Assembly (NCBI RefSeq): GCF_001514065.1
Contig: NZ_KQ948423.1
Coordinates: forward strand, 62,001-126,000
Reading direction: 5' to 3'
From: Streptomyces antibioticus
Lineage (GTDB): Bacteria; Actinomycetota; Actinomycetes; Streptomycetales; Streptomycetaceae
DNA length: 64,000 nt
The translations under genes were made by a program, and so were the position numbers. This document shows positions 7,328 through 9,606 of this stretch, piece by piece (the first letter of the stretch is position 1; the number at the start of each line of letters is the position of its first letter). A model generated the notes under the pieces. The model was not told where the DNA came from and searched no databases. It saw nothing but the letters and a program-made list of their open reading frames with translations.

Positions 7328-7490
7328 CCGCCGTGCCTCTGCATCGCGCCTCCCGATTTCGCCGTGCCGGGTGGTCCCTGGTGTCGGACACCTCCTGATC
7401 GCAGGGAAGCGTGCGACGGGGGCGCGCGCATGCGGAGTACGGCGATCGGGTGACAGGGGAGCCTGCGCGGGGGTTCGCGTCGAGGCGTCG

Positions 7491-7513
7491 TTGTCAGTGG
7501 GGTTCGGCAGGAT
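7491..7513 (+). promoter_or_regulatory. PafBC-type (RecA-independent DNA-damage) promoter
   Basis: TTGTCAGTG at 7491-7499 is followed after exactly 8 bases by CAGGAT (7508-7513). The known consensus of the mycobacterial RecA-independent damage promoter, later tied to PafBC, is TTGTCRGTG-N8-TANNNT; only the first base of the -10 differs. It lies 38 bases before the winged-helix gene at 7552. Regulation is inferred from the motif. Confidence 0.7.
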
Positions 7514-7551
7514 GGGGGCGTCGGCGGTGTGGTGCGCGGAGGGCAGGTCGG

Positions 7552-8736
7552 ATGCGGTACATCGGGGTGGCGGAGCGGCGGGGGCGGCTGGGCGTGCGGC
7601 ATCGGCTGGCGGCGGGCTCGCGAGCAGGGCGGCCCGAGGAGGTCGCCGAGGCTCTCGTCGCCTTGCACGGGAGCGATCCGGCGACCGTGCATCTGGCCGT
7701 CGGGGCCCGGCTGGCGGAGTCCGGCAAGACCGTCGCGGAGACCGAGCGCGCGTTGTACGAGGACCGGACCCTGGTGCGGATGCACGGCATGCGGCACACG
7801 GTGTTCGTGTTCCCCGCGGAGCTGACCGCGGTCGTGCACGCCTCCACCGGGCTGGTCGTGGCGGGGCGTGAACGGGCCTCGCTGGTCAAGGACATGGCCA
7901 AGGCGGGGGCGCCGGATGCCGCCTGGCTGGCGGACGTCGAGGCGTCGACGCTGGCCGCCCTGGAGCGGCGTGGCCAGGCGACCGCGGCCGAACTCGCCCA
8001 GGACGAGCCCCGGTTGCGGGAGCAGTTCGTGTACGCCGCCGGGAAGAGCTACGAGGGTGTCCACACCGTCTCGACCCGGCTGCTGAGGGTGTTGGGCGTG
8101 GAGGGGAAGGTCGTGCGAGGGCGGCCGTTGGGGTCCTGGACCTCAAGTCAGTTCCGGTGGGCCGCCGCTCCCCCGCATCCCGAACTCGACGTGGCCGGGG
8201 CCCAGGCGTCCCTGCTCCGCCACTGGCTCACGGCCTGCGGACCGGCCACGGAGGACGACCTCAAGTGGTGGACCGGCTGGAAGGTGACGGACGTCCGGCG
8301 GGCGCTCGCGGCGATCGGCGCGGAGGCCGTGGCGCTCGACGAGGGCACCGGGTATGTCACGCAGGGGGACGCCGAGCCCGTGGACGGGGGTGACCGGCCC
8401 TGGGCCGCTCTGCTGCCCGCGCTCGATCCGACCGCCATGGGCTGGCAGCAGCGGGACTGGTTCCTGGCGCCCCATCTGCGGCCCCCGCTGTTCGACAGAA
8501 GCGGCAATGTCGGGCCCACCGTGTGGTGGAACGGCCGGGTGGTGGGCGGCTGGGCGCAGCGGCCCGACGGGGAGATCGTCTGGCGGCTGCTGGACGAGGA
8601 CGGGGTCGGGCGGGAGGCGAGGGCAGCCATCGCCGCGGAGGCGGAGCGGCTGCGCGGTTGGGTGGGGGCGACCCGGGTGACGCCTCGCTTCCGGACGCCG
8701 CTGGAGCGGGAGTTGGCGGGGCGGGGCGGGACCTGA
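7552..8736 (+). CDS. AlkZ-superfamily winged-helix DNA-binding protein
   Basis: A 394-residue member of the HTH_42 (AlkZ/YcaQ-like) family of winged-helix proteins, some of which are DNA glycosylases that unhook crosslinks or remove alkylated bases. Family stretches include LLPALDPTAMGWQQRDWFL and SSQFRWAAAPP. At the place where the glycosylases carry a QxQ or QxD motif, this protein has LVALHGSDPATVHL (H39, S41, D42), so catalytic glycosylase activity is uncertain. ATG 7552 has GGAGG 11 bases upstream. A PafBC-type promoter lies just before it, supporting a DNA-damage role. A perfect terminator hairpin follows the stop. Confidence 0.8.
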   Translation: MRYIGVAERRGRLGVRHRLAAGSRAGRPEEVAEALVALHGSDPATVHLAVGARLAESGKTVAETERALYEDRTLVRMHGMRHTVFVFPAELTAVVHASTGLVVAGRERASLVKDMAKAGAPDAAWLADVEASTLAALERRGQATAAELAQDEPRLREQFVYAAGKSYEGVHTVSTRLLRVLGVEGKVVRGRPLGSWTSSQFRWAAAPPHPELDVAGAQASLLRHWLTACGPATEDDLKWWTGWKVTDVRRALAAIGAEAVALDEGTGYVTQGDAEPVDGGDRPWAALLPALDPTAMGWQQRDWFLAPHLRPPLFDRSGNVGPTVWWNGRVVGGWAQRPDGEIVWRLLDEDGVGREARAAIAAEAERLRGWVGATRVTPRFRTPLERELAGRGGT

Positions 8737-8741
8737 GCGAC

Positions 8742-8780
8742 GGGTGCCGGGTGCCGTGCGGGACACGGCACCCGGCACCC
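8742..8780. terminator. Perfect 17-bp hairpin between convergent genes
   Basis: The arms 8742-8758 and 8764-8780 are perfectly complementary with a 5-base loop. It follows the stop at 8736 and faces the stop of the leftward gene at 8787, so it can serve both. There is no T tract, as is common for Streptomyces terminators. Confidence 0.85.
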
Positions 8781-8786
8781 CACGGC

Positions 8787-9095
8787 TCACCGCGCGTAAC
8801 GCATCAGCGCCCGCACCATGTGGCACGTCGTGTCCGACGGCGGGTGTACGCCAATCGTCTCCGCCGTGCTCCGTATCTTCTCGTTGCGCGCCTGGTTCGG
8901 CACGTACACGCCCGAGTCGAGTAGGGCGATGGCGAGCCGCATCGCCTTCAGGCGGCGGTTGTGCGTGATGTACCACTCGCGTGGCCGGCCCGGCGGCAGC
9001 GGGCGCTTCTCCACGGGGGCGTAGGGCAGGTCGAGCAACACCGGGTGCTGGACGGTCGACTGGGTGGGCAACGGCTTCAGAGCGGCAGCGGGCAC
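8787..9095 (-). CDS. Small conserved-looking protein under a DNA-damage-type promoter
   Basis: A 102-residue protein of unknown function, rich in Pro and basic residues, with the stretch PREWYITHNRRLKAMRLAIA and a helical C-terminus ending MVRALMRYAR. No signal peptide, membrane helix or known motif is visible. The start is decided by the ribosome site: AGGAGG directly abuts an ATG at 9101 but stands 6 bases before a GTG at 9095, which is the proper spacing, so GTG 9095 is preferred. A perfect PafBC-type promoter lies about 75 bases upstream (9172-9194). The role is not known; a part in the DNA-damage response is inferred from that promoter alone. Confidence 0.7.
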   Translation of the reverse strand: MPAAALKPLPTQSTVQHPVLLDLPYAPVEKRPLPPGRPREWYITHNRRLKAMRLAIALLDSGVYVPNQARNEKIRSTAETIGVHPPSDTTCHMVRALMRYAR

Positions 9096-9171
9096 AGGCA
9101 TCCTCCTGTCGCGGTCAGGGTGTCGGAACGGAGGGTTCGGCAGCCCCCCAACACCCTCGAACACTTCTTCT

Positions 9172-9194
9172 AGTGTACCGCCCGGCACTGACAA
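9172..9194 (-). promoter_or_regulatory. Perfect PafBC-type DNA-damage promoter
   Basis: Read on the minus strand, TTGTCAGTG (9194-9186) is followed by 8 bases and then TACACT (9177-9172). This fits TTGTCRGTG-N8-TANNNT at every specified position. It points to the small gene starting at 9095 and would give a 5' leader of roughly 70 bases. Confidence 0.8.
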
Positions 9195-9246
9195 AAGGCC
9201 CTGGCCACAGGGGCTTTGAGGGGACCTCAGAGGTACCTTTGACCCC

Positions 9247-9606
9247 ATGGAGATCTGGATCAACCCGGCTTGTTCCAAGTGCCGCAGTGCCATCAGCCTG
9301 CTCGATGCCGAGGGGGCCGACTACACCGTCCGCCGCTATCTGGAGGACGTGCCGAGCGAGGGCGAGATCAGGGCCGTACTCGACCGGCTCGGCCTCGAAC
9401 CGTGGGACATCACCCGCACCCAGGAGGCCGTCGCCAAGGAGCTCGGGCTCAAGGAGTGGGCGCGGGACGAGACGTCGCGGGACCAGTGGGTCAAGGCGCT
9501 CGCCGAGCATCCCAGGCTGATCCAGCGGCCGATCATCACGGCGGACGACGGCACGGCGGTGGTCGGCCGCAGCGAGGAGGCCGTTCGGGACGCTCTGTCC
9601 CGGTAG
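9247..9606 (+). CDS. ArsC/Spx-family thioredoxin-fold reductase
   Basis: A 119-residue ArsC-family protein, close to the full length for the family. The active-site loop is NPACSKCRS (C9 and C12), followed by the typical family order of LDxxGADYTVRRYLED and a late RPIITADDGTAVVGR loop carrying the conserved Arg-Pro. The family includes glutaredoxin-linked arsenate reductases and YffB-like proteins of unknown substrate. No arsenic-resistance genes are nearby, so arsenate reduction is uncertain. The ATG at 9247 has no strong ribosome site; it follows a short AGAGGTACC stretch. It stands alone, divergent from the small gene at 9095. Confidence 0.8.
   Translation: MEIWINPACSKCRSAISLLDAEGADYTVRRYLEDVPSEGEIRAVLDRLGLEPWDITRTQEAVAKELGLKEWARDETSRDQWVKALAEHPRLIQRPIITADDGTAVVGRSEEAVRDALSR

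Follow-up and report, generated by a model that had tools for sequence, protein, structure and literature searches.

The locus described here raises the question of which regulators control a small gene lying behind a sequence that resembles a damage-inducible promoter, and of what its product might do. The finding made in the first-pass annotation is real, and stronger than first stated; its reading of the promoter is well supported but incomplete.

The gene and its PafBC-type promoter

Within the window (the whole 64-kb stretch of DNA that was analysed), ORF calling and the choice of start define a coding sequence of 102 codons plus stop at 8787..9095 on the minus strand, with a GTG start. 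A Shine-Dalgarno sequence, AGGAGG (9102..9107, minus strand), lies 6 nt 5′ of GTG 9095, and the AGGAGG itself overlaps the alternative start, ATG 9101. The first-pass annotation had moved the start to GTG 9095, and this move is borne out by the conservation of start codon and AGGAGG in orthologues. A script that by design favours in-frame starts with a good Shine-Dalgarno sequence was run on 80 close orthologues: it chose GTG for 79 and TTG for the remaining one, all with a perfect AGGAGG upstream, and the gap was 6 nt in 78 of the 80. For 18 diverged Streptomyces orthologues the same script chose ATG 17 times and GTG once, at the 6-nt gap. In a second genus, read as Nocardia, starts were mixed (18 GTG, 13 ATG and 1 TTG among 32), and some are clearly misplaced.

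Read on the minus strand, positions 9194-9172 are TTGTCAGTG-CCGGGCGG-TACACT. The PafBC (RecA-NDp) upstream box TTGTCAGTG (9186..9194, minus strand) was assigned by its match to the consensus and its conservation upstream of orthologues, and the -10 hexamer TACACT occupies 9172..9177 (minus strand), where relatives often have TAGAAT, TAAAAT or TAAACT. Excerpts of PMC5656591 give the published RecA-NDp consensus as tTGTCRgtg-8nt-TannnT, and the minus-strand reading confirms the earlier claim that TTGTCAGTG-N8-TACACT fits it at every specified base. The window contains no other strict match, and shuffled sequences gave 0.

Whether the motif is conserved upstream of homologues was the test that had been set beforehand, and conservation was found in both Streptomyces and Nocardia. 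Of the close orthologues (the best 80 of 300 relatives), 69 are preceded by a strict motif; the remaining 11 differ from it at one or two bases, and nine of these read ATGTCAGTG. Among 20 further relatives (L131-L150), the motif is strict in 16 and has one mismatch in 4, while all 20 diverged Streptomyces loci keep it, 17 of them strictly. For Nocardia, 16 of 33 rows have a strict motif and 30 have at most one mismatch; with two mismatches allowed, a site is found in 34 of 34 rows. The loose form of the motif is absent from the loci of the plasmid relatives L238, L239 and L255, and from L204. PafBC control of the gene, taken by itself, is very probable. ClgR, too, is reported to recognise this type of promoter (PMC5656591, in excerpt).

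The surroundings of the gene are less constant than its promoter. Convergent with it is a gene for an AlkZ-like DNA glycosylase (PF06224 by Pfam match; 7411..8736, plus strand, with an ORF start that is probably too far upstream), an arrangement seen in 62 of 80 close loci, and divergent from it is a gene for an ArsC-family protein (PF03960 by Pfam match; 9247..9606, plus strand), found on the opposite strand in 76 of the 80. Neither neighbour was found at the four Nocardia rows that the neighbour search covered; for diverged loci the search extended to about 1 kb in all or to short flanks. Since the PafBC motif is kept while the neighbouring genes change, the promoter belongs to the 102-aa gene. 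Between the two convergent stop codons lies a perfect 17-bp inverted repeat with a 5-bp loop (8742..8780, on neither strand in particular). To judge by its sequence it is possibly a bidirectional terminator lacking a T run; a terminator search did not report a terminator there.

Across the genome (Streptomyces, 10.1 Mb) there are 45 strict motif matches, versus 0 for the reversed pattern. A simple script could call the downstream gene at 43 of these 45 sites, the 102-aa gene included. Of the 42 other genes, we scanned 25, with proteins cut at 330 aa, and 14 of the 25 match families of DNA repair, recombination or replication, a proportion to be read in the light of a choice made by eye that favoured recognisable repair genes. 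Behind strict sites lie recA, uvrA, uvrB, ruvC, nth, ung and ogt, further family matches to RadA, DnaX, a RarA-like protein, a Hel308-type helicase and a DinG/YoaA-type helicase, genes for an AlkZ-like glycosylase and a RecD2-HHH protein, and likewise those for ribosomal S6, ThyX and RimO; the RadA, UvrA, UvrB, RarA-like, RimO, Hel308-type and DinG/YoaA-type matches fall below the NCBIfam curated cut-offs, and the DinG/YoaA-type protein had no Pfam match at 1e-4. The genome also contains two adjacent WYL-domain genes, a candidate pafB-pafC-like pair named by the WYL domain and by gene order. From these genome counts Streptomyces seems to make use of the motif, S. venezuelae not being among the genomes examined by name. 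According to excerpts of PMC9380542, an initial search did not recover the M. smegmatis PafBC motif as conserved in S. venezuelae, and a RecA/LexA-independent damage response in Streptomyces is said there to remain to be shown.

A predicted overlapping LexA box and a third element

The promoter contains a further candidate regulatory site. A predicted LexA (SOS) box, TAGAAGAAGTGTTCGA (plus strand TCGAACACTTCTTCTA; 9157..9172, on the minus strand), agrees with TCGAACNNNNGTTCGA at 10 of 12 positions and begins on the last T of the -10 hexamer, a base that the two elements share. Scored with a matrix built from the 17 S. venezuelae boxes in Table 1 of PMC9380542, this box reaches 17.9 and ranks 1 of 127974 14-mers in the window. 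The same matrix gives 17.4-17.9 for the validated S. venezuelae recA and dnaE2 boxes, 15.5 for the commonest form in close orthologues, 17.2 and 18.2 for two Nocardia forms, and 12.5 for the N. farcinica form. In shuffled sequences a score of 10/12 was reached in 0.1% and one of 9/12 in 1.25%.

The box recurs in a fixed register. We recounted distinct sites in each group, with 2 mismatches allowed in the 9-base PafBC box (an earlier LexA scan of 138 rows includes repeats of one locus under two ids). Out of 12, the scores were 10 in 57, 9 in 22 and 8 in 1 of 80 close loci; 10 in 22, 9 in 7 and 7 in 1 of 30 further Streptomyces loci; and 11 in 29 and 10 in 3 of 32 distinct Nocardia sites. Boxes of at least 9/12 share one offset in 79 of the 80 close loci, 29 of the 30 further Streptomyces loci and 32 of 32 Nocardia sites. 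None of the 20 diverged Streptomyces loci has a box of at least 9 at the shared offset (best scores 5-9, the single 9 at another offset); all the loci compared come from related species, and ‘diverged’ denotes a grouping by protein identity, not a proven clade. Within the genome, only this one of the 45 strict PafBC sites has a LexA box of at least 10 within 60 nt from the -10; at the recA PafBC site a 10/12 box lies farther off, 115 nt from the start of the motif. Two LexA-family genes are present (G000:C15:72774-73400 and G000:C4:696702-697307), both above the curated cut-off.

The position of the LexA box, across the -10 and start region, predicts control by RecA/LexA as well, so that the promoter would not be simply RecA-independent. 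We therefore retain only part of the first-pass description of a RecA-independent damage promoter: the promoter is of PafBC type, but the LexA box at the -10 and start, with the control predicted from it, had been missed. LexA control in addition to PafBC control is likely, judging from the score and register of the box. It is not essential to the gene everywhere, since the box is gone in the 20 diverged Streptomyces loci. A GTG within the LexA box, in frame in the window, was considered as a leaderless start and rejected, because the distance from motif to start in relatives spans all three frames.

A third upstream element is conserved and specific to this gene: TGGCCAG, at 9201..9207 (longer form 9201-9218) on the minus strand, which starts 13 nt before TTGTC. 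In the 45 nt upstream, 48 of the 79 close loci, 9 of the 18 diverged ones and 8 of the 29 Nocardia ones have the exact heptamer, which is missing from 31, 9 and 21, respectively. It stands 13 nt before TTGTC in 48 close, 8 diverged (the ninth at 12) and 7 Nocardia loci (the eighth at 14). The group consensus lengthens it to gAAA..cC.TtGtGgcCAG. None of the genome's other 44 strict PafBC sites has TGGCCAG, and a loose genome search for the element gave 6 matches, this gene's own included, versus 8 for the reversed pattern, hence no excess. That the gene might regulate itself through this element is a guess.

The protein and its family

The product had been described as a 102-residue protein with no known domain, and sequence searches agree: Pfam gave 0 families, NCBIfam a single match at E 0.13, PHROGs a best E of 0.027, and the PDB 0 matches by sequence. 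No HTH model passed threshold, with weak HTH_IclR matches in 3 of 19 members (best E 0.062), and no model of the SulA/DivS/ChiZ type of division inhibitor appeared in the Pfam, NCBIfam or PDB sequence results.

The protein is basic (pI 10.4). In a full-length structure model, aa 1-27 form a tail of very low confidence, followed by a better core, and the core model (pLDDT 91, pTM 0.77) has three helices at about aa 39-61, 71-81 and 88-101 (core residues 12-33, 44-54 and 61-74). Among the features invariant across 19 sequences are W41, Y42, H45, R47, K50, R53 and a signature PS-x2-TC-x2-VR, and R47, K50 and R53 fall in the first helix. Foldseek searches with the two models returned no significant match (best E 0.89 and 0.47, none below 0.001). 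The top row, the Rv0543c orthologue (3ol3/3ol4; 22-23% identity), was rejected as not a real match, at E 0.47-0.89 and an rmsd near 8 Å.

From topology and charge we judge the modelled core to be HTH-like. Small HTH domains such as the TetR N-terminal and IclR HTH domains likewise consist of three helices, are basic and have a similar order of helices, and the TetR-type chains 3mvp and SCO3201 are among the weak Foldseek rows (TMq 0.46-0.49). In contrast to TetR and IclR proteins, the 102-aa protein has no ligand domain and a longer turn before its third helix, and no E-value is significant. As no HTH model or fold match reaches significance, it is topology and charge that would point to DNA binding, and we regard the chances that this is a small DNA-binding protein as evenly balanced.

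Of 199 Streptomyces genomes 190 have an orthologue, which is the sole match in 185 of these; in the second genus 51 of 59 genomes have one, as the sole match in 50. In a family-level sample it was present in 71 of 150 genomes and 6 of 17 genera, and in a wider class sample in 40 of 394 genomes and 2 of 137 genera. The gene is under purifying selection (dN 0.04-0.09 vs dS 0.33-0.71 in 8 pairs). Distant relatives occur on one Streptomyces plasmid (L238:5818-6333, plus strand, directly before a ParB-domain gene) and on one Kitasatospora plasmid, and a closer relative on a 1.5-Mb Streptomyces plasmid. Another distant relative, L204:2893-3200 (plus strand), lies near a contig end. The weak match G377 was rejected as a family member, as its locus lacks the family signature. 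Searches of phage and viral-contig collections turned up no relative of the protein.

Proposed mechanism and comparison with known systems

Taking promoter and protein together, we lean slightly towards reading the locus as a doubly gated gene, activated by PafBC and repressed by LexA, for a small, probably DNA-binding protein. PafBC, once activated by single-stranded DNA, would bring the housekeeping RNA polymerase to TTGTCAGTG-N8-TACACT, where a LexA dimer sitting on 9157-9172, across the end of the -10 and the start region, would block the polymerase until RecA filaments trigger LexA cleavage. Since its box covers the end of the -10 and the start, LexA is expected to shut the same promoter that PafBC switches on. 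An AND gate is thus predicted, in which both sensors would be needed, so that background would stay low and expression would be strong only when damage is real. The protein, which would have a flexible N-terminal tail followed by a compact, HTH-like core of three helices, would most likely bind DNA or DNA-bound machinery and in this way serve the damage response as a regulator or a checkpoint factor. That PafBC and LexA occupy their sites, that they form AND logic, that the protein binds DNA and that it has a checkpoint role are all inferred.

The LexA part of this reading could be wrong if PafBC drives the promoter alone and the LexA-like palindrome is initially transcribed sequence that is kept for another reason. 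The loss of the palindrome in the 20 diverged Streptomyces loci, all of which keep the PafBC motif (17 of them strictly), is what this would lead one to expect, and the Streptomyces consensus has only one box half that is perfect. However, Nocardia matches both halves, with 29 of 32 sites at 11/12 and in the same register despite different flanks; an independent matrix ranks the box first among the LexA-type 14-mers in the window; and the same composite stands on other genes in the class. We consider PafBC acting alone improbable. Still further from the evidence is the idea of a chance motif in front of a spurious ORF, in favour of which we found nothing and which we reject, with scarcely any reservation, because gene, start codon and motif are all conserved; this conservation has already refuted it.

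Where the product is concerned, the strongest competitor holds that it acts through proteins, as a small checkpoint protein of the SulA/DivS kind, without homology to these, that inhibits replication, RNA polymerase or sporulation division. The strong conservation of the 22-residue first helix and the lack of a significant HTH match would suit such a role, as would the inhibition of S. venezuelae sporulation by mitomycin C that is reported in excerpts of PMC9380542, but the high pI and the HTH-like order of helices speak against it, and we treat it as a serious though minority possibility. The gene could also derive from a mobile element, its product being a DNA-binding protein from plasmids that was domesticated and placed under the host's damage control. 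The distant relatives on Streptomyces (before a ParB-domain gene) and Kitasatospora plasmids, the closer one on the 1.5-Mb plasmid and the lack of the loose motif in these three plasmid loci would fit such an origin, whereas the single copy in 185 of 190 positive Streptomyces and 50 of 51 positive Nocardia genomes, and the lack of a relative among the phage and viral contigs searched, do not; moreover, origin and present function are different questions. On balance this origin seems rather unlikely.

Under the preferred reading, a doubly gated gene for a probable DNA-binding protein, the 102-aa gene appears to be a promising candidate for a new factor of the DNA-damage response, as the first-pass annotation had proposed and as we, too, would hypothesise on sequence evidence. 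As the gene is nearly universal in Streptomyces, common in Nocardia and of no known function, much could probably be learnt from a knockout. Streptomyces gains a candidate PafBC regulon and, with it, a sharp test gene, which offers a way to ask whether two sensors of single-stranded DNA, PafBC and RecA/LexA, form an AND gate at one promoter.

A search of the class for the composite pattern, with at most 2 mismatches, found it in 70 of 296 genomes, and the reversed pattern was not among the matches listed; part of the matches in the 70 genomes will be chance or partial ones. Genes for DUF222 proteins (PF02720) in several Actinomycetes are preceded by the PafBC-type boxes and a LexA box in the register seen here (e.g. 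L306:126-163, plus strand, L309, L317 and L319), and all 10 composite-locus genes that were scanned are DUF222, the 10 having been picked from 40 loci for a start near the box, with L294 and L325 being the same site. Of the 40 composite loci (L286-L325), 29 have their called start within the LexA box, 7 nt downstream of the -10, and the protein usually begins MFE or MFD. Given a start at this place, the DUF222 mRNA is probably leaderless. One genome (G815) has 13 PafBC/LexA composite sites. In the titles and abstracts of the open-licence PMC literature we found nothing linking DUF222 or 13E12 with the PafBC/LexA register, nor anything on the 102-aa gene or on a superimposed register. More speculatively, and in our view doubtfully, the 102-aa protein could be the founding member of a family of checkpoint proteins in filamentous actinomycetes that bind DNA and are induced by damage, behind a triple-input promoter that combines PafBC, LexA in fixed register and a self-regulating, gene-specific site (GAAA..CC.TTGTGGCCAG), with the composite of PafBC -10 and LexA box being a portable AND-gate module, at work on DUF222 genes across Actinomycetes as well.

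The locus can be set beside several known systems. In the model drawn from excerpts of PMC11804915, single-stranded DNA activates PafBC, and SigA polymerase then uses promoters with a -26 motif (sigma adaptation). RecA-NDp/PafBC promoters, in the mycobacterial regulon and at Streptomyces recA and SCO6735, have the same boxes and 8-nt spacing as the 102-aa gene, and S. coelicolor SCO6735, with its promoter of RecA-NDp type, is reported to rise 5-fold after UV (PMC5087735, in excerpt). In the S. venezuelae LexA/SOS regulon, as far as excerpts of PMC9380542 describe it, the validated recA and dnaE2 boxes are matched in score by the box at 9157-9172; the 102-aa gene was not identified among the genes of Table 1 in these excerpts, and it differs from that regulon in that its LexA box is combined with an activator-dependent promoter. 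The DUF222 composites have their start codon inside the LexA box, whereas the 102-aa gene has a Shine-Dalgarno-led GTG downstream. Dual PafBC/LexA control as such is already known: excerpts of a review (PMC8223512) state that several genes carry both motifs, and mycobacterial recA is served by P1, a PafBC promoter, and P2, which LexA controls (PMC11804915 and PMC5656591, in excerpt). The difference at the 102-aa gene is superposition: P1 and P2 of mycobacterial recA are separate units, while here the LexA box is superimposed on the PafBC -10 and start.
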